Assembly (NCBI GenBank): GCA_946887155.1
Contig: CAMPKM010000137.1
Location: forward strand, 1 to 7,332
Direction of reading: 5' to 3'
DNA from: an uncultured Gemmatimonadota bacterium
GTDB taxonomy: Bacteria > Gemmatimonadota > Gemmatimonadetes > Gemmatimonadales > Gemmatimonadaceae
DNA length: 7,332 bases
Below are positions 1 through 7,332 of the stretch, piece after piece. The position numbers were made by a program, and so were the translations under genes. The notes beneath the pieces were generated by a model, which had not been told where the DNA came from, searched no databases, and saw only the letters and a list, made by a program, of their open reading frames with translations. Numbering within the stretch: the first letter of the stretch is position 1; the number at the start of each line of letters is the position of its first letter.

Positions 1-1617
1 ATGCCGAGTGGGGAGTTGCTCCTTCGCGCCTTGCGCACCTGGGGAGCGCGATTCGCCCGGTACGTCGAGGGTGATTACGCAATCCTGGCGTGGGAGAAAC
101 GTCGCGGACGACTGCTGCTCGCCCGTGATACCGGCGGTCGAAGAACCCTCGTTTACGCCACGTCAGGCGCGTCGACGATCGTGGCGTCGACGTCGGGTGC
201 GGTTGTCTGTCACCCCGCCGTCTCCCGTGAATTCGATCGGGGATTCATTGCCGCATCCGCGAGTTTTGTGTTCGGGCCCGGGCAACGCACGGCGTATCGG
301 CACGTCTCCATCGTTGCGCCGGGATCGACCCTGTCGATCGAAGGCGGCACCGTTCACGAAATCGATCGATGGACGCCGGTCGTCGGGTTTGACTGGGAAC
401 GAGAACCGTCGCAGGCGGCGGCGGAGGAACTGCGACACCTGCTCATGAATGCCACCCGGGAGCGCCTGGATCCCGAGCGCCCGACGATGGTGTTCATGAG
501 CGGCGGCTGGGACTCCCCGTCAGTATTCGCAGCCGGATGCGCCGCACTCGAGTCGGCAGGGGTCGATCGCACGAAGCATCCCTTGCTTCCCGTCTCGATG
601 ACGTATCCACCCGATGACATCGGGAACGAGGACCATCACATCAATGCGATCGCGGCGCGCTGGGACGTTCCCGTCACCTGGCTCCAGACGGAGAAGATCC
701 CCCTGCTCGAGGACAGCGAAAATCGCGCCCTGAAGCACGATGATCCGATGATGCAGACCTTCGAGGGGCAGATGCGGCACCTCGCCAGGTCATCTCGCCA
801 GTACGGCGCGCGAGTGGCGTTGGACGGTTTCGGAGGAGACCACATCTTCCACGTATCCAGTGCCGCGGTGATTGCTGATCACCTCTTCTTCGGAAGGTTC
901 GGCGAGCTCTGGCAGGAATGGAGAGAATGGGGATTGTCGGGGCGCGCATTCCTCCGCCTCGCGCTCATGCCGCTCATTTCCGACGGTGTCCGCGACTGGC
1001 TTGGAACCGTGCGCGGTCGCCCACTGAATGGGTTCTGGGACCGGGGTTTTCCGCCTTGGATCGTCCGTTCCAGGGAAATTCTGGCGGAGCTCGCGCCCGC
1101 CATCGAGCGGGATGCCGGAGAAAGCGCCTCGCAGTACGAGTTGCGCCGCGGCTTGTTGGGATCGATCACGGGCAGGGCCGCGTCGTGGAACATGGCATTT
1201 GGCCTGGACGAAGGGTTGCAGATGCGCGGGCCGCTGTTCGACCGCCGTGTCGTCTCGTTTGCCGCCTCGCGCCCTTTGAGCGATCGGGCCAAGGCCGGCG
1301 ATTCGAAGAAGCTTCTTCGGAAGGCGATGGCCGGACTGATTCCCGACACGGTGTTGCGGGCGCGCGACAGAAAGACTGGCACCCCCTCCGGTTACTTCAA
1401 ACGTCAGTTCCAACCCGTCGCGGAGGCCGAAGTCCGCAAGCTTTTTCTCAGCGGGAAGTCGAACCTGGAGCTTCTGGGGGTCATTGACCGGCAGGAGTTC
1501 TTGCGGTCGGTCGACAGGTACGTAAACTCCGGCGCCCACCTGCTCGGGGCCGCCATTCAACAGACAGTCGCGGCCGAGCGATGGCTCGCCGTACGGACAA
1601 GGCTGGAACCCATATAG
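1..1617 (+). CDS. Lasso-peptide macrolactam cyclase (asparagine synthetase B-like), probably 5'-truncated by the window
   Basis: Asparagine-synthetase-like enzyme. In lasso pathways (McjC/LasC type) it adenylates an Asp or Glu side chain of the core peptide and lets the N-terminal amine close the ring. Seen: the first ~125 residues read as the back half of a glutaminase-like (Ntn) domain (GDYAILAWE, LLLARDTGGRRTLVYA), followed by the AsnB synthetase domain. The ATP pyrophosphatase loop is SGGWDS at residues 167-172, GFGGD lies at 276-280, and a basic segment RDRKTGTPSGYFKR lies near residue 455. The ORF is open from base 1, which happens to be ATG, giving 538 residues. Lasso cyclases are usually about 580-620 residues and carry some 60-80 residues before the GDYAI-like motif, so the true start is probably upstream. 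The stop is TAG at 1615-1617. The precursor gene follows after 65 bases. An ordinary AsnB is less likely given the neighbours. Confidence 0.9.
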   Translation: MPSGELLLRALRTWGARFARYVEGDYAILAWEKRRGRLLLARDTGGRRTLVYATSGASTIVASTSGAVVCHPAVSREFDRGFIAASASFVFGPGQRTAYRHVSIVAPGSTLSIEGGTVHEIDRWTPVVGFDWEREPSQAAAEELRHLLMNATRERLDPERPTMVFMSGGWDSPSVFAAGCAALESAGVDRTKHPLLPVSMTYPPDDIGNEDHHINAIAARWDVPVTWLQTEKIPLLEDSENRALKHDDPMMQTFEGQMRHLARSSRQYGARVALDGFGGDHIFHVSSAAVIADHLFFGRFGELWQEWREWGLSGRAFLRLALMPLISDGVRDWLGTVRGRPLNGFWDRGFPPWIVRSREILAELAPAIERDAGESASQYELRRGLLGSITGRAASWNMAFGLDEGLQMRGPLFDRRVVSFAASRPLSDRAKAGDSKKLLRKAMAGLIPDTVLRARDRKTGTPSGYFKRQFQPVAEAEVRKLFLSGKSNLELLGVIDRQEFLRSVDRYVNSGAHLLGAAIQQTVAAERWLAVRTRLEPI

Positions 1618-1671: not shown

Positions 1672-1678
1672 AGGGAGG
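1672..1678 (+). promoter_or_regulatory. Strong Shine-Dalgarno site of the precursor gene
   Basis: AGGGAGG lies four bases before the ATG at 1683. It is the best ribosome binding site in the window and fixes the precursor start at 1683 rather than at the in-frame upstream codon at 1581, which would overlap the cyclase and add a 34-residue tail unlike any leader. A strong site fits a precursor needed in excess over its enzymes. Confidence 0.8.
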
Positions 1679-1682
1679 ACGC

Positions 1683-1865
1683 ATGTACGAATCACCCAAA
1701 CTCGTCCGCTTCGGCAGCTTTCGTGAGCTGACGTTGCAGGTGAGCGATTGCACGAATGGCGGCACGGCTCCGCAGCCGTGGACGTTCAAGAACCAGCCGA
1801 ACGCGGACTCGTTCGTCCCGGTCGGCAACGATGACGACGGCTGCCCCACGGTTGCCCGTTCGTAA
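1683..1865 (+). CDS. Lasso-type RiPP precursor peptide, 60 residues
   Basis: Substrate of the cluster. Residues 2-17 match the leader pattern Y-x2-P-x-L-x3-G-x5-T that B1 proteins recognise: Tyr2, Pro5, Leu7, Gly11, Phe13, Thr17. In known precursors the conserved Thr is at -2, which predicts cleavage after Leu18 and a core starting Gln19. That core would be 42 residues, long for a lasso peptide (commonly 15-26), and has no Asp/Glu at core positions 7, 8 or 9 (Asn25, Gly26, Gly27). Acidic residues lie at Asp22, Asp42 and Asp50-52; Cys23 and Cys54 could form a disulfide. The last residue is Ser60, the position phosphorylated in paeninodin-type peptides, which fits the two kinase genes. A later cut would give normal sizes: Thr34 at -2 places Asp42 at ring position 7, and starts at 42-45 place Asp50-52 at 7-9. 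The identity as precursor is well supported; the product's topology is not. Confidence 0.88.
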   Translation: MYESPKLVRFGSFRELTLQVSDCTNGGTAPQPWTFKNQPNADSFVPVGNDDDGCPTVARS

Positions 1866-2189: not shown

Positions 2190-2468
2190 ATGAATCTGCC
2201 AAGCCCGCGTTCCAGCGTCGTCGTAAAGGGCGTTTCCGAAGGTGCGATCCTTTTCTGCACCGAGACGGAAACGTATTTCAGCCTCAACCCGGTTGGCGTC
2301 CAGGTCTGGCGGCTTCTGCCACCGGCGTGTTCAACCGAGGCGGAGATCGTTTTGCGCCTGCGCCGCGACCATCCAGAAATCCCAGCCGAGACGATTGAGT
2401 CCGACGTGCGCGAATTGTTGGCGGAATTGGTGAAACACCGATTGGTAGAAGTGCTGCAGGCGGCCTGA
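2190..2468 (+). CDS. PqqD-like RiPP recognition element protein, copy 1 (B1a)
   Basis: 92-residue stand-alone PqqD-family protein (lasso B1). This winged-helix-like fold binds the leader peptide and delivers the precursor to the peptidase and cyclase. Typical features: EGAILFCTETETYFSLNPVG (beta-strands, then the N-P-V-G turn near residues 18-37), VWRLLPP, and a C-terminal helix with DVRELLAELVKHRLVEV. The start is ATG 2190; a TTG at 2145 in the same frame would add 15 residues outside the domain. No good Shine-Dalgarno site lies before 2190. By eye about 30 of 80 aligned residues match the second copy at 5035, so the two are paralogues long diverged. It is separated from both neighbours by terminator-like hairpins, unlike the tightly packed genes further on. 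Which of the two copies serves this precursor cannot be told. Confidence 0.88.
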   Translation: MNLPSPRSSVVVKGVSEGAILFCTETETYFSLNPVGVQVWRLLPPACSTEAEIVLRLRRDHPEIPAETIESDVRELLAELVKHRLVEVLQAA

Positions 2469-2501
2469 GCCAGCGATATCGAAGGTTTTTGAGCGAGCGC
2501 A

Positions 2502-2519
2502 TCGATCCATCTCGATCCA
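2502..2519 (+). repeat. Two direct copies of TCGATCCA, ten bases apart
   Basis: Copies at 2502-2509 and 2512-2519 start exactly ten bases apart, one helical turn, which is how tandem sites for OmpR-like regulators are often arranged. It lies 34 bases after the B1a stop. It may be chance in GC-rich DNA; no regulator is visible. Confidence 0.35.
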
Positions 2520-2551
2520 CCGTCGTCGCGCTAAGCGTGGTCGTGACTCCA

Positions 2552-2569
2552 CCGCGGTGTATGCCGCGG
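2552..2569 (+). other. Short GC hairpin in the B1a-K1 gap
   Basis: CCGCGG at 2552-2557 and again at 2564-2569 (self-complementary) form a six-pair stem with loop TGTATG. No T-run follows. It is part of the 273-base gap 2469-2741, in which I see no gene. Confidence 0.35.
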
Positions 2570-2618
2570 CACGCCGGAGTGCAGCTAAAGTGGCCGAAGG
2601 GTTCCGGCCTGCGAAGGG

Positions 2619-2648
2619 AATGCCGGCTCTCAGGCCGGCGTTTTCGTT
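2619..2648 (+). terminator. Intrinsic terminator after B1a
   Basis: GCCGGC at 2622-2627 pairs with GCCGGC at 2634-2639 over the loop TCTCAG; the A/T-containing flanks extend the stem slightly, and TTTTCGTT follows from 2641. It lies about 150 bases after the B1a stop and about 95 before the K1 start. Together with the hairpin at 1986-2020 it brackets B1a. Confidence 0.75.
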
Positions 2649-2705
2649 GCTCCCTCTGTTTGTAAGCGGTCCTTGGGAGACGGACAGGCACAGGGCAAGT
2701 GAAGA

Positions 2706-2720
2706 GAAGCCATTGGCTTC
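2706..2720 (+). promoter_or_regulatory. 7-1-7 dyad just upstream of K1
   Basis: GAAGCCA-T-TGGCTTC is a perfect dyad ending 21 bases before the K1 ATG. At the DNA level it could be an operator over a K1 promoter; in the mRNA it would fold next to the ribosome binding region and could limit translation. The sequence before the ATG itself (CGAGAACGACC) has only a weak Shine-Dalgarno match. Confidence 0.45.
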
Positions 2721-2741
2721 CAGTCGCTATCGAGAACGACC

Positions 2742-3692
2742 ATGATCGCAACGACAGACAATCGGTACAGCTTGTTCGGCGGCGTGCTCCGTACCTCTCT
2801 CGAGCTTCCGGAACTCCATCCCGTAATGCTCGGTGCCGATGAAAACTGGACGCTGACCGTACACGATGACGTGCCAGCTCCCAGCACTGCCTTTCCCTGG
2901 TCTGCCGACGAGGAACTTGCTGGCGGTATTTCCATCCGGCTCGAACGTGCGCCTGACGGCGTTTCGCGGCTCACCTACTCCGATACCGGAACGTTCGATA
3001 TCTCGCGGGACGGTACGCGCATCGATTGGTATCGTGCTCCGAATGCCAATGGCGATCTTGCCCGAACGGACATTCTCGGGCGCGTCATTTCCCTGGCGAT
3101 GCAGTCGAGCAGGGTTCTCATGCTCCACGCGAGCGCTGTGTGGATGAACGGCGAAGTTGCCGGGTTCCTCGCTCCCAAGTTTTATGGAAAGTCCACGCTG
3201 GCATGCGCACTGACGGACGCTGGCGCGCGGCTGGTGACCGACGATGCGCTCGGTGTTCGCATCGGTGACACCGTCGCGTGTGCGCCAGGCGTTCCCGCCA
3301 TTCGACTCCGAAAAGGAGCAGCGGCCTACCTGCGAGGTTCAGAAAAAGTCGAATCCGACTCGGTGGACTGGCGCCATCTCGAGCGCCGGGCCGCCGAGGA
3401 GGTACTGCATCAATGGGCTCCGGTTGGCGCGCTTTACGTGCTGAATCCGCGCCCGCCACGCGAAATGACGGCTCCCGCCATCCGGGAGCCGCTCTCTGGA
3501 ACGGAAGGCGCGCTCGCACTGGTGAAATTTGCGAAGTTGGGTAACCTGCTCCGAGGGATGCTGGCGGTAGAGTACTTGGGAATGGCAGCGGAAATCGCCA
3601 ACAGGGCAAGCATTTATACGTTGACGTATGCGCGAGATATGGAACGGCTCGCCGAGGTCGCTGAAACCGTGAAGGGATGGCATCGCGGGTGA
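2742..3692 (+). CDS. HPr kinase-like lasso-peptide kinase, copy 1 (K1)
   Basis: 316-residue relative of the HPr kinase/phosphorylase C-terminal domain. Lasso-cluster members (PadeK, ThcoK) phosphorylate the C-terminal Ser of the precursor; the precursor here ends in Ser. Seen: N-terminal FGGVLRT, a central TGTFDISRDG-WYR segment, then MLHASAVW (His129), a P-loop APKFYGKST at 144-152 (Lys150, Ser151), and TDDAL with Asp167-Asp168, matching the HPrK order of His, Walker A and acidic pair. The first Gly of the usual G-x4-G-K-[ST] is Ala and the residues before Gly149 are bulky, which is unusual but shared with K2. It opens the second transcription block, after a terminator; its end overlaps the nucleotidyltransferase start. 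Substrate assignment is inference. Confidence 0.85.
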   Translation: MIATTDNRYSLFGGVLRTSLELPELHPVMLGADENWTLTVHDDVPAPSTAFPWSADEELAGGISIRLERAPDGVSRLTYSDTGTFDISRDGTRIDWYRAPNANGDLARTDILGRVISLAMQSSRVLMLHASAVWMNGEVAGFLAPKFYGKSTLACALTDAGARLVTDDALGVRIGDTVACAPGVPAIRLRKGAAAYLRGSEKVESDSVDWRHLERRAAEEVLHQWAPVGALYVLNPRPPREMTAPAIREPLSGTEGALALVKFAKLGNLLRGMLAVEYLGMAAEIANRASIYTLTYARDMERLAEVAETVKGWHRG

Positions 3693-4924
3693 TTGCGGGT
3701 CCCCTTAGAATCCCTTCATCGACTGTTCACCCAGCTGGGGCGCACTTGGGCGATGCGTTGAAGCTCGATGGGATAGGATCGCCGGAATGGGCGCTGTTAC
3801 TCGCGTCCAGTCGGGGCGACCCCGACCGTGAGGTCATTCATCGGCTCATGTCGGGGGATCTGGATTGGCGGCTCCTGACCCGGCTGGCAATCAACGCGCA
3901 CGCCACGCCTGGTCTCTGGCAGGTGGTGTCGGCGTTCCCGAACCTGCCTGACGAAGCAGAACGACTTCAGGCGGTTGCCGTCCTGAATGACTTTCGCCGG
4001 TACCACATTCGGTCGCTGGTGGCGCGCCTTTCAGAGCAACTCCGCGCGGAAGGCATTGAAGTCCTCGCGCTGAAGGGTGCCGCGCTTCTCGCTGGCGGCG
4101 TTCAGAAGCCCATGCCGCGGACGATGTCAGATATCGATCTGCTCGTCCTCAAGGGCTCGCCGGAGCAGGCGTGGACCATTTGCCGGACGAATGGCTGGTC
4201 GCTCGTCGACGATGCGTGGACTGAAGAGCTGTACCGGAATCACCACCATCTGGCCCCGCTCATCGATCCGGATGGTGTGAACATCGGTCTCGAGTTGCAC
4301 CGCACGCTCCTCGCTGGCGTCGACCGTCTTGGACTCGACACGTTGTCCGTGGTGAAGCGAGCCCGGTCCGTGATGGTCAACGACGTTCCGGTGCTTGTTC
4401 CGTCGGTGGAAGACCTGCTGCTCCACACGTGCCTGCATTTCGCGTGGTCGAACAAGCTTCGACGCGGAGTCTGGCGGGCCTACGCCGACACGCATTCGAT
4501 CATCGCCGACCCGGGCTTCAGCTGGGACCGCTTCGTGAGTGTCGCGACGTCACGACGCATGCGCCAATCCTGTTACTGGACCCTCAGGATCGGACAGGTG
4601 GTCGCTGACGTCACTGTTCCCGAGGGAGTGCTCAAGGCCCTCGATCCGTCGTCAGGCGGACGATTCGGCGGTCTGCTCGAACGGCACTTCGCGCTTCAAT
4701 TGTCGGATCCTCAGGCCGATGATGCGGTGGCTCAGCGCGCGCGGCGCTGGTTATGGTTTGCCGCGATGCGCGAACGATCCGGTTCCCGGGAAGGGGATAT
4801 CCTGTGGAACGAGGGCGCCGTTGACGTGCCTGGTGAAGGAGCTGCGTCCCCGCGTTCGCAGCGCGGTGCCGTACGCGCTGCCGTGGAAACGTGGGGGTAT
4901 TTCGCACGGTTGCTCGCCCGGTGA
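3677..4924 (+). CDS. Nucleotidyltransferase-fold protein (NTP_transf_5 / PF14907-like) of lasso clusters
   Basis: 415-residue protein with the pol-beta-type nucleotidyltransferase signature: LALKGAALL, then R-x-M-SDIDLLV with the metal-binding pair Asp152 and Asp154, followed by a conserved-looking helix-rich region (ELHRTLL; LLLHTCLHFAW). Family members recur beside PadeK-type kinases (paeninodin and pseudomycoidin clusters), where they are thought to act on the phosphorylated C-terminus; the reaction here is not shown. ATG 3677 overlaps the K1 end by 16 bases, but GAAGGG touches that ATG with no spacer. The in-frame GTG at 3689 forms a GTGA overlap with the K1 stop, like the K2/ABC junction, and puts the same site 12 bases upstream; either start is possible. 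The C-terminal ~50 residues are low in recognisable motifs. Co-translation with K1 suggests they act on the same peptide. Confidence 0.82.
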   Translation: MASRVIAGPLRIPSSTVHPAGAHLGDALKLDGIGSPEWALLLASSRGDPDREVIHRLMSGDLDWRLLTRLAINAHATPGLWQVVSAFPNLPDEAERLQAVAVLNDFRRYHIRSLVARLSEQLRAEGIEVLALKGAALLAGGVQKPMPRTMSDIDLLVLKGSPEQAWTICRTNGWSLVDDAWTEELYRNHHHLAPLIDPDGVNIGLELHRTLLAGVDRLGLDTLSVVKRARSVMVNDVPVLVPSVEDLLLHTCLHFAWSNKLRRGVWRAYADTHSIIADPGFSWDRFVSVATSRRMRQSCYWTLRIGQVVADVTVPEGVLKALDPSSGGRFGGLLERHFALQLSDPQADDAVAQRARRWLWFAAMRERSGSREGDILWNEGAVDVPGEGAASPRSQRGAVRAAVETWGYFARLLAR

Positions 4925-5034: not shown

Positions 5035-5427
5035 GTGAACCAGAAACAACTCCGAATACTCACAGCGAAGCCGAGTGGGGTCCATGCCTCACCCGTGAGT
5101 CACGCAATGGCACCAGTTCAAGGAAAAGCGCTGCCGGCTCCCGCTCCGGGTGCAGTCTTTCGCAGGCTGCCCGAAGGTGGCGTACTGTTTTCCACGGAAA
5201 CGGAGGTCTACTTCGGGGTGGGTGTCGTCGGCGCGGCGATCTGGGAGCTGCTGCCACCCGTCACGCAAACCGTGGAAGAAATGGTCTCCACCCTGGCGGC
5301 CAAGTACCGTGACGTCTCCGCCAGTCAGATCCGCAACGATGTCGACCGATTCCTCGAGGAACTCCTCTCCAACGGTCTGGTCACGCACGTGGCGCCGCCT
5401 GCGGCGGGAGATACGAAGGTACCGTAG
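5035..5427 (+). CDS. PqqD-like RiPP recognition element protein, copy 2 (B1b)
   Basis: 130 residues from GTG 5035, or 106 from ATG 5107. The PqqD/RRE domain spans about residues 36-120: FRRLPEGGVLFSTETEVYFGVGVVG, IWELLPP, and a C-terminal helix NDVDRFLEELLSNGLVTHV. It shares TETE-x-YF and W-x-LLPP with B1a and plays the same leader-binding role, but has Gly-Val-Gly-Val-Val in place of the Leu-Asn-Pro-Val turn. The N-terminal Ala/Pro-rich extension has no counterpart in B1a. It is directly followed by, and overlaps, the leader peptidase, the standard B1-B2 pairing, so this copy is the likelier partner of B2. The 110 bases before it (4925-5034) hold no gene or hairpin that I can support. Confidence 0.87.
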   Translation: MNQKQLRILTAKPSGVHASPVSHAMAPVQGKALPAPAPGAVFRRLPEGGVLFSTETEVYFGVGVVGAAIWELLPPVTQTVEEMVSTLAAKYRDVSASQIRNDVDRFLEELLSNGLVTHVAPPAAGDTKVP

Positions 5428-5866
5428 GGCCGGTCCGAAACTCCGCGCGCTCGGCTGGCGTGACTGGCGGGACCTCGTCCGCGCGCAATTCGCGCTCGCG
5501 CGAGCGAATCGGGAAATGCGGACACTGCCCACCGGCGACATGGTGCGGGATGAATCGCGGCCGGCCGCTCAGGCGGGAGGTGTCGACCGAACCCTCGATG
5601 CCCGGCGAATCGCGCTGGCGGTCAATCGCGCGGCGGCGTTCGGGTTCTTCCGGCCAAAATGCCTCGTGAAATCGCGCGCCCTGCGGCGCATGCTCGACGA
5701 CGCGGGGATCGAGGGCGCGGACGTCCGCGTTGGAGTGTTCCTGCGCGAGGGTCGTTTTCTGGCACACGCGTGGGTGGAGTATCGCGGGCAGGTGGTCGGT
5801 GACGATCCCGCCTTCGTCGCGAATTACGTACCGATGACTGGGATCCAGGTGGCGGCCATCGAATGA
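5339..5866 (+). CDS. Transglutaminase-fold leader peptidase (B2, Transglut_core3-like)
   Basis: Cysteine-protease-like enzyme that cuts the leader off the precursor once B1 presents it. Seen, counting from ATG 5339 (175 residues): an N-terminal helix (LGWRDWRDLVRAQFALARAN) usual for the family, catalytic Cys108 in RPKCLVKSRAL, catalytic His143 in LAHAWVEY, and Asp155 or Asp156 in VVGDDPAF as the third residue of the triad. The start is uncertain. ATG 5339 forces an 89-base overlap with B1b and a poor leader segment; CTG 5399 would fit the domain better but is rare as a start; ATG 5516 gives a tidy 116-residue protein but deletes the N-terminal helix. No ATG, GTG or TTG lies between 5342 and 5515 in this frame. 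The stop overlaps the K2 start as ATGA. Confidence 0.82.
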   Translation: MSTDSSRNSSPTVWSRTWRRLRREIRRYRRAGPKLRALGWRDWRDLVRAQFALARANREMRTLPTGDMVRDESRPAAQAGGVDRTLDARRIALAVNRAAAFGFFRPKCLVKSRALRRMLDDAGIEGADVRVGVFLREGRFLAHAWVEYRGQVVGDDPAFVANYVPMTGIQVAAIE

Positions 5867-6801
5867 CGCAACTCTACGACGTGTTTGGCGGCACACTTCG
5901 CTCGGAGCTGCCGATCGAGGAACTGCCCAAGGCGATGGCGGTTTCCCCTGATTGGACGCTGCGCGTGGAGGATCGCACCACGCCTTCACCCCCCGGTGAG
6001 CTGCTCGGCACCGATATCGTGTACGGCGACACCCGCGTCAGATGCTACAGGACCGACGGCGGGTTCGCGCTCGTTTTTGATGACACCGGCCGATTCGATG
6101 TCTCGTCCGACGGCGCACACATCACGTGGTATCGCTCCGCTGACGCCGACCTCCAGTCGGCGCTGGCCGACATAACGAGCCGCGTGCTGGCGCTGGCGCT
6201 CCATGCCAGTGGCGTCTTCTGCCTCCACGCCAGCGCGGTGTCAGTGGCCGGAACCGGATTGGCGTTCCTCGCGCCGAAGCATCACGGGAAGTCGACGCTG
6301 TGCAGCGCCCTCGTGCTGCAGGGGGCCCGCGCACTCAGCGACGATACGGTGCCCGTGCGGCCGGGGTCGACGCCGATGCTGTCGCCTGGCTTGCCCCGCC
6401 TCCGGTTGTGGACGGACGCCGCGGCGCGCCTGTTCGGCACCGACGATAAAGGCGCGGTCACGAAGCGAGTCATGGACCACCTCGATCCGGATCGCGTGGA
6501 AACCGAATCGGTGCGGTTCGGCGCCGCCTATGTGCTGACCCCCGTGACGAGCCTGCCGGATGGCGCCGTCGTCGCCCGGCAACGCCTGGACACCATCGAG
6601 TCGACCATGTGCCTCGTCAGGCACTCCAAGCTCGGCCCGGTGCTCGCCGGCTCCGAGTCGCCGTTGATGCTGGCGCGGGCCGCTGATGTCGCCAGCGTGG
6701 TGCCCGTGTACGCGCTACACGTGGTCCGCGACCTGAACCGCATCGGTGAACTGGCCACACAGTTGGTTCGCTGGCACGAAACGGGGCAGGAGAACTCGTG
6801 A
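5863..6801 (+). CDS. HPr kinase-like lasso-peptide kinase, copy 2 (K2)
   Basis: 312 residues, a clear paralogue of K1 along its whole length: FGGTLRS at the start, DDTGRFDVSSDG-WYRS, CLHASAV (His122), P-loop APKHHGKST at 137-145 (Lys143, Ser144) and SDDTV with Asp160-Asp161. As in K1, the first P-loop Gly is Ala and bulky residues (His-His) precede Gly142. The C-terminal third (about 210-312) matches K1 less well apart from LVRHSKLGPVL versus LVKFAKLGNLL. The start is ATG 5863 in an ATGA overlap with B2, and its stop overlaps the ABC gene as GTGA, so B1b-B2-K2-ABC read as one coupled unit. Expected role: phosphorylation of the precursor's C-terminal Ser. Whether it repeats K1, extends its product to further phosphates or serves another peptide is unknown. 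Confidence 0.85.
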   Translation: MTQLYDVFGGTLRSELPIEELPKAMAVSPDWTLRVEDRTTPSPPGELLGTDIVYGDTRVRCYRTDGGFALVFDDTGRFDVSSDGAHITWYRSADADLQSALADITSRVLALALHASGVFCLHASAVSVAGTGLAFLAPKHHGKSTLCSALVLQGARALSDDTVPVRPGSTPMLSPGLPRLRLWTDAAARLFGTDDKGAVTKRVMDHLDPDRVETESVRFGAAYVLTPVTSLPDGAVVARQRLDTIESTMCLVRHSKLGPVLAGSESPLMLARAADVASVVPVYALHVVRDLNRIGELATQLVRWHETGQENS

Positions 6802-7332
6802 CGTCATCGACGCTGGAGGTGCGGGAGTCCGAGAGCTCAGCCACTCGTGACACGGTGGTTCGGGCTTCGGGGCTGACGAAACGTTTTCCGGCCCGGCGCG
6901 GCCTGAAGCAAACGTTGCTACACCCGTTCGATAACACAAAAACCACCGTGGTGTCCGACGTGACCTTCACGATCGACGCCGGTGAGTTCCTCGGGTTGCT
7001 GGGGCCTAACGGGGCCGGGAAGACGACGCTGCTGAAGATGCTGTCGACCCTCATCATTCCCGACGAAGGGTCGGCCTCGATTGCCGGCAAGGACGTGGTG
7101 AAGGACGCGGCGTCGGTACGCGAGCTGGTGTCGCCATGCCTGACGATGGAGCGGAGCCTCTACTACCGGCTATCGGCCCGCCAGAACCTCGAAGTGTACG
7201 CGGACCTGCAGGCCGTCGACCGGCACCAGCGGGACGCGCGCATCACCGAGGTACTGCAGGCGGTTTCGCTCGCCGACACCGGCGAAAAGATGGTCGGACA
7301 GTTCTCGAGCGGCATGCTGCAGCGGTTGCTCA
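6798..7332 (+). CDS. ABC transporter ATP-binding protein, 3'-truncated by the window
   Basis: From GTG 6798 (overlapping the K2 stop as GTGA) the frame stays open to the last base, 178 codons. The first ~22 residues are a polar extension, then ASGLTKRFPARRG starts the nucleotide-binding domain. Walker A is GPNGAGKTT at 69-77 and the signature is SSGMLQ at 170-175; Walker B lies beyond the end. In the Q-loop region the sequence is VSPCLTMERSLYYRLSARQNL, with no Gln in the usual place; this resembles the GER-x-LYWRLTARENL type of ABC-2 exporter ATPases. It likely exports the mature peptide or gives immunity (the D role in lasso clusters); a permease gene would be expected next. Confidence 0.9.
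   Translation, partial: MTSSTLEVRESESSATRDTVVRASGLTKRFPARRGLKQTLLHPFDNTKTTVVSDVTFTIDAGEFLGLLGPNGAGKTTLLKMLSTLIIPDEGSASIAGKDVVKDAASVRELVSPCLTMERSLYYRLSARQNLEVYADLQAVDRHQRDARITEVLQAVSLADTGEKMVGQFSSGMLQRLL

Follow-up and report, generated by a model that had tools for sequence, protein, structure and literature searches.

The window, as we call the whole 7,332-nucleotide stretch of DNA analysed here, contains a 60-codon open reading frame (1683..1865, + strand; ATG at 1683, TAA at 1863-1865) that encodes a lasso-type precursor peptide. It sits between a lasso cyclase gene and, in order, genes for a B1 protein, a kinase, a nucleotidyltransferase, a second B1, B2, a second kinase and an ABC transporter ATPase. 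A probable ribosome binding site, AGGGAGGA, occupies 1672..1679 (+), just 5′ of the precursor ATG. The leader, residues 1-18 (1683..1736, +), carries the YxxPxLxxxGxxxxxT motif of lasso peptides, and residues 2-18 match NCBIfam NF033521 (lasso_leader_L3) with an E value of 1.2e-6 and a score of 28.3 bits, well over the curated cut-off (19). It ends in Thr17-Leu18, and the leader peptidase B2 is predicted to cut after Leu18. With its ribosome binding site, a lasso leader above cut-off, a lasso cluster around it and homologs that keep its pattern, this 60-codon ORF is a genuine gene. An earlier note on this DNA had considered that a better precursor might be the true substrate; when window ORFs of at least 40 amino acids were scanned for the leader pattern, no second precursor came to light.

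The predicted core, from Gln19, is 42 residues long. Its positions 7-9 are Asn-Gly-Gly, where a lasso precursor with Thr at -2 is expected to provide Asp or Glu, and the earlier note's observation of a lasso leader without the ring-closing acid is thereby borne out. The N-terminal segment Gln19-Phe35 (1737..1787, +), whose length varies from 0 to 19 residues in the family among the matches listed, holds Cys23 (1749..1751, +). It is followed by Lys36-x5-Asp42 (1788..1808, +), the proposed side-chain to side-chain lactam ring, and by a loop and tail, Ser43-Ser60 (1809..1862, +), which includes Cys54 (1842-1844), the proposed disulfide partner of Cys23, and ends in Arg-Ser. Cys23, Lys36, Asp42, Asp50-52 and Cys54 all lie where the note had placed them.

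All the genes listed here are on the + strand. The cyclase (protein C, asparagine-synthetase type; 1..1617) has lost its N-terminus at the window edge; it matches PF00733 (E 1.1e-22), has an SGGWDS loop, and matches NF033535 and NF033561 below their cut-offs. Two predicted PqqD-like leader-binding B1 proteins are encoded at 2190..2468 (PF05402, E 6.2e-14) and 5035..5427 (PF05402, E 1.4e-16), and two HprK-related lasso peptide kinases at 2742..3692 and 5863..6801, each matching TIGR04352 below cut-off with its H-K-DD motif present. Between them lie a nucleotidyltransferase-fold protein (3677..4924; PF14907, E 1.5e-30) and B2 (5405..5866, start codon provisional), which scores 56.2 bits against NF033537 (cut-off 33) with its Cys-His-Asp residues intact. 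The ABC transporter ATPase (6798..7332; PF00005, E 4.7e-21) runs off the end of the window. The presence of B1, B2 and cyclase genes with intact catalytic residues identifies a lasso cluster, and an HprK-like kinase with H-K-DD together with a C-terminal Ser in the precursor suggests one of the paeninodin type. Because the left edge of the window cuts the cyclase gene, further cluster genes may lie upstream. Among the nine window proteins scanned, no acetyltransferase family was matched.

A related cluster, locus L001 from a metagenome-assembled genome of Gemmatimonadaceae (G001), has the gene order of the window and, inserted after B1 and ahead of the first kinase, an additional cyclase accompanied by a canonical precursor; in the corresponding part of the window (2469-2741) we found no cyclase match and no leader. 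The window has two B1 and two kinase genes (2190-2468 and 5035-5427; 2742-3692 and 5863-6801) for a single precursor. The same doubling occurs in L001, there with two precursors, and loss of one cyclase and its precursor from the window is therefore conceivable.

We collected homologs of the precursor in successive protein searches. The first gave 8 matches, the second, with an alignment of those 8, the best 120 of 146 matches, and the third, with an alignment of divergent members, the best 120 of 338, 52 of them new. Counts below refer to the window precursor and 172 listed proteins, which, after removal of P0062 (N-terminally truncated), represent 168 distinct cores; loci picked for carrying Lys-x5-Asp were left out of the counts. 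The homologs share a common descent, and most are known as proteins without gene context. Lys-x5-Asp is present in 165 of the 168 cores (115/118 in the first set and 50/50 among those new in the last search, the profiles of the second and third searches having been built from members that mostly carry the motif). The listed exceptions are P0069 and P0078, which have Lys-x6-Asp, and P0101, which has no such pair and looks degenerate. The departure from the 7-9 ring rule noticed in the window is therefore no lone oddity, the pattern being shared by the Lys-x5-Asp family, and the alignment of relatives that the earlier note had proposed as a check identifies Asp42 as the conserved acid and Thr17 as the conserved leader end among the matches listed.

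Within this family the distance between leader and ring is variable, and the distance between Lys and Asp is not. From the predicted cut (after Thr17-x18) to the Lys there are 0-19 residues in the window and listed matches, 17 of them in the window. In 148 of 165 listed cores the Lys lies at least 3 residues past the predicted cut, where a ring closed by the α-amine would span at least 10 residues; in the other 17 it is at core position 1-3, and closure in the usual way is possible. An acid at core positions 7-9 is absent from 135 of the 165 listed Lys-x5-Asp cores. To fix the register without reference to the Lys, cores were anchored on the first Asp-x5-Gly, so that the choice of Asp is independent of it. 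The anchor was found in 156 of the 168 listed cores, and Lys occupied position -6 in 148 of these 156. Among 31 dissimilar representatives of the matches listed, the entropy at -6 was 0.36 bits (27 Lys of 29), as compared with 2.34-3.17 bits at ring positions -5 to -1. With Lys and Asp mutually fixed in a variable ring while the N-terminus slides, the register of the ring appears to be set by the Lys and not by the N-terminus. Thr was present at leader position 17 in all 172 listed leaders when it was not demanded, and the C-terminus also varies little, the last residue being Ser in 163/165 and the last two Arg-Ser in 160/165 Lys-x5-Asp cores (window and matches listed). Proteins P0168 and P0164 and loci L016 and L061, in which the Lys is the first, second or fourth core residue, resemble steps between the canonical and extended forms.

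The earlier note had also offered Asp50-52 as acceptor, and this is less supported. An Asp-Gly-(Cys/Leu/Asn) tail is found in 86 listed cores. Its Asp lies 15 residues past the Lys in 53 of them, 16 past it in 22 and 11-20 past it in the remaining 11, versus the fixed spacing of 6 for Asp42 in 165/168.

Cysteines in the listed Lys-x5-Asp cores are paired. The total is 0 or 2 and never odd in 165/165: 91 cores have none before the Lys and two from the Lys on, 72 have one on each side, and 2 have none. P0075 and P0141 lack the upstream Cys but have a second one in the tail, and P0076 and P0172 lack both the upstream and the tail Cys. When the tail counts of 32 dissimilar representatives were shuffled, none of 100,000 trials matched the observed pairing, a statistic that ignores shared descent. 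Three Cys occur in 4 of the 29 canonical precursors described below. The pattern suggests that a disulfide probably joins the N-terminal segment to the tail, as Cys23-Cys54 in the window, and here the note's proposal looks right. Since 72 of the 165 cores have one Cys before the Lys and one after it, the N-terminal segment is probably retained in the product.

Precursors from related loci offer a comparison with canonical siblings. We sorted 45 leader-bearing precursors by acid position, and in 29 of them core positions 7-9 include an acid (at position 8 in 22, at 9 in 6, and at both 7 and 8 in 1). These 29 canonical precursors have ten different residues at core position 1, and two of them (L016 and L019), of the form Gly-Lys2...Asp8, carry Lys-x5-Asp as well. 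The Lys-x5-Asp class comprises 12 of the 45, with an additional acid at position 9 in L012, L055 and L056, and four of the 45 have neither an acid at 7-9 nor Lys-x5-Asp. In the canonical siblings the acid is fixed 7-9 residues from the cut, whereas in the Lys-x5-Asp family it is fixed relative to the Lys. The precursors of L018, L023 and L035 (VSLNLGAFAL...SCDC) show neither feature.

Several clusters link a Lys-x5-Asp precursor with a particular set of enzymes. In L037, L038 and L039 it is the sole precursor found, beside the sole cyclase, within 16 kb, and in the stretches examined of L037 and L038 one such precursor adjoins one cyclase and one B2. The Cys-His-Asp residues of B2 and the H-K-DD residues of the kinases are intact in the window, L001, L037, L038 and L039. 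The draft genome G001 has one B2 match and two precursors, each beside its own cyclase, one of the Lys-x5-Asp type and the other with Asp at 7 and 8. With a single B2 match, the two precursors probably share a peptidase, which would be expected to cleave each of them after residue 18, a missed B2 being possible in a draft genome. Two further Lys-x5-Asp precursors, L036 (G154) and L040 (G002), have no lasso enzyme gene found within 16 kb and 9 kb, respectively, and are perhaps served in trans. Clusters L051 and L072 gave no cyclase match in the stretch examined, and their B2 has Glu in place of the catalytic Asp of the others.

The cyclases of the window, L001, L037, L038 and L039 form one clade with support of 100/99 among 29 sequences, in a rough tree whose bootstrap had not settled. 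Ala393 and Trp396, positions picked after looking, are present in 5/5 cyclases of this clade, as compared with 0/19 and 1/19 canonical cyclases, respectively, and both are kept in the partial cyclase beside the Lys-x5-Asp precursor of L010. They are lacking in 5 of the 10 cyclases that lie beside Lys-x5-Asp precursors (L044, L061, L062, L063 and L070; offsets 1-3). The L061, L044 and L070 cyclases group together (96/94), and that of L061 falls with the Gly-Lys2...Asp8 type (bootstrap not settled); with 17 sequences, neither one nor two cyclase origins was favored (p-AU 0.463). Lys458 was considered as a type-specific residue and rejected, since it also occurs in 3/19 canonical cyclases. With the window cyclase as query, no relative was found in the genome contigs, and the only solved structures matching by sequence, 7ylz and 1ct9, are too distant to place Trp396.

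Several of these clusters share a chromosomal site. L001 (4978-5975), L037 (1094-12059), L038 (1088-12226), L039 (1245-12049) and L080 (2395-5806) are located in the str operon, with rpsL-rpsG to one side and fusA to the other, and both flanks are present in G001, G154, G081 and G155. An EF-G match lies on the contig of the precursor in G152 and G153, and in G002 S12 adjoins B2. Of nine genomes searched, seven gave a single S12 match and the other two, G152 and G153, gave none; eight of the nine had two matches to EF-G domain IV. Canonical cluster L045 and the odd cluster L072 are likewise located between S7 and EF-G, L047 is flanked on one side by S12-S7 and L051 on one side by EF-G; a mere ~2 kb separates S12 from EF-G in G262 and G271. 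The site is common to canonical clusters, and its specificity for the Lys-x5-Asp type was rejected. The portions of the literature searched yielded nothing on lasso clusters in the str operon.

By plain counting, a lactam between a Lys side-chain amine and Asp(i+6) has 26 ring atoms. The same count gives 26 for Gly1-Glu8, the ring of microcin J25, and 25 for x1-Asp8; a seven-residue ring closed on Glu has 23, and one in which the α-amine of Lys1 is joined to Asp7 has 22. Identity with Gly1-Glu8 would fit a cyclase that keeps the ring geometry but takes a side-chain amine. We consider it likely, from the conservation patterns and gene content described above, that the window encodes lasso machinery with a different nucleophile. 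B1 and B2 would remove the leader after Thr17-Leu18, as the conserved Thr-x end and the intact B2 suggest; the cyclase would then adenylate Asp42 and join it to the side-chain amine of Lys36 in a 26-atom, seven-residue lactam. Gln19-Phe35 would remain as a free N-terminal arm, crosslinked to the tail through Cys23-Cys54 as the paired Cys imply, and the tail would presumably be threaded as in lasso peptides. By analogy with paeninodin and pseudomycoidin, a kinase would phosphorylate the C-terminal Ser. On balance we also favor the extension of this reading to a large lasso-type family in which the side chain of Lys i closes on Asp i+6, the Lys sets the position of the ring, and an arm of 0-19 residues can be disulfide-locked to the tail.

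The same Lys-Asp pair would be used if the leader were cut late, directly before Lys36, and the α-amine of the Lys closed a seven-residue ring to Asp42, the cleavage after Phe35 suggested in the earlier note. The product, of 25 residues, would be of ordinary length, and rings of seven residues are known in lasso peptides along with those of 8 and 9 (PMC13352647). The frequency of Gly or Thr before the Lys (105 of the 148 listed cores with Lys at least 3 residues in) could reflect cleavage, and in P0168 the Lys directly follows Thr-Leu. However, Thr at -2, the usual cut marker (PMC10368454), precedes the Lys in only 49 of those 148 cores, with no residue fixed there, whereas Thr17 is kept in all 172 listed leaders; the ring would have 22 atoms versus 23 in a seven-residue Glu ring; the lone B2 found in G001 would have to cut at two different places; and the upstream Cys, which varies together with the tail Cys, would be stranded in 72/165 listed cores, an argument that applies only to the subfamily with an N-terminal Cys. 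An invariant Lys would also be left unexplained, as canonical siblings accept ten residues at position 1. The invariant Lys, sliding N-terminus and paired Cys thus make late cleavage awkward, and we regard it as unlikely: the pair singled out by the note looks right, and the cleavage site it proposed is probably wrong.

Closure of Asp42 by the amine freed after Leu18 would retain the known nucleophile and the conserved acid, at the price of a ring of 24 residues in the window and of 7-26 across the family (offsets 0-19, matches listed). The invariant Lys would again have no role, and Gln, which is core position 1 in 132 of the 165 listed Lys-x5-Asp cores, can lose its amine as pyroglutamate when N-terminal; we give this large, variable ring very little credence. 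It also seems improbable, somewhat more so than late cleavage, that the conservation of Lys and Asp has some other cause, for instance modification of the Lys or a role in recognition, with the true linkage being something else. Albusnodin does have a conserved, acetylated Lys (PMC9266682), but no acetyltransferase accompanies the window precursor among the proteins scanned, and the exact spacing of the Lys to a fixed acid fits ring closure. Against a Lys nucleophile in general is the account in a 2026 review (PMC13352647), in which the peptide N-terminus attacks the activated Asp or Glu.

The preferred reading, a ring closed by the Lys36 side chain, bears directly on this rule. By the accepted description, a lasso is closed through its N-terminal amine; the ring is thereby confined to the 7-9 residues that follow the leader, with no space for an N-terminal arm. 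If the reading is true, closure by a cyclase that uses an internal Lys would break the rule, represent a new way of building a lasso, explain precursors that fall outside the usual pattern and give access to interlocked peptides with both ends free for extension. Searches of the open-licence PubMed Central literature brought up no title or opening of an abstract that reports a Lys-closed lasso, and the literature searched gave no product, mass or structure for the Lys-x5-Asp family.

Among the known systems closest to the window are lasso peptides with split B1 and B2, with which it shares the NF033521 leader, PqqD-like B1, transglutaminase-like B2, asparagine-synthetase-like cyclase and ABC ATPase. 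It differs from them in lacking an acid at core 7-9, in the internal Lys that appears to set the register and in the proposed free N-terminal arm. The HprK-like H-K-DD kinase, the nucleotidyltransferase-fold gene and the C-terminal Ser are shared with the paeninodin and pseudomycoidin clusters (PadeK/PsmK, PsmN), whose kinases phosphorylate the C-terminal Ser and in which PsmN is linked to a hexose on that residue (PMC9266682). The window departs from these clusters in its proposed ring closure and in having two copies each of the kinase and B1 genes. Xanthomonins likewise have rings of seven residues, counted from the one that supplies the nucleophile through the acid. Their rings are Gly1-Glu7, closed through the N-terminal amine with the acid at position 7 right after the leader, where the window core has Asn; the pair proposed here is Lys-Asp, and as many as 19 residues precede its Lys. 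Graspetides also have side-chain to side-chain links, which are made by ATP-grasp ligases; no such domain was matched among the nine window proteins scanned, the left end of the cluster lying beyond the window. Metanodin (PMC12670498) is likewise a metagenomic lasso precursor missed by standard annotation, and its ring starts at the N-terminal Asn1, with Thr at -2, unlike the internal Lys proposed here.
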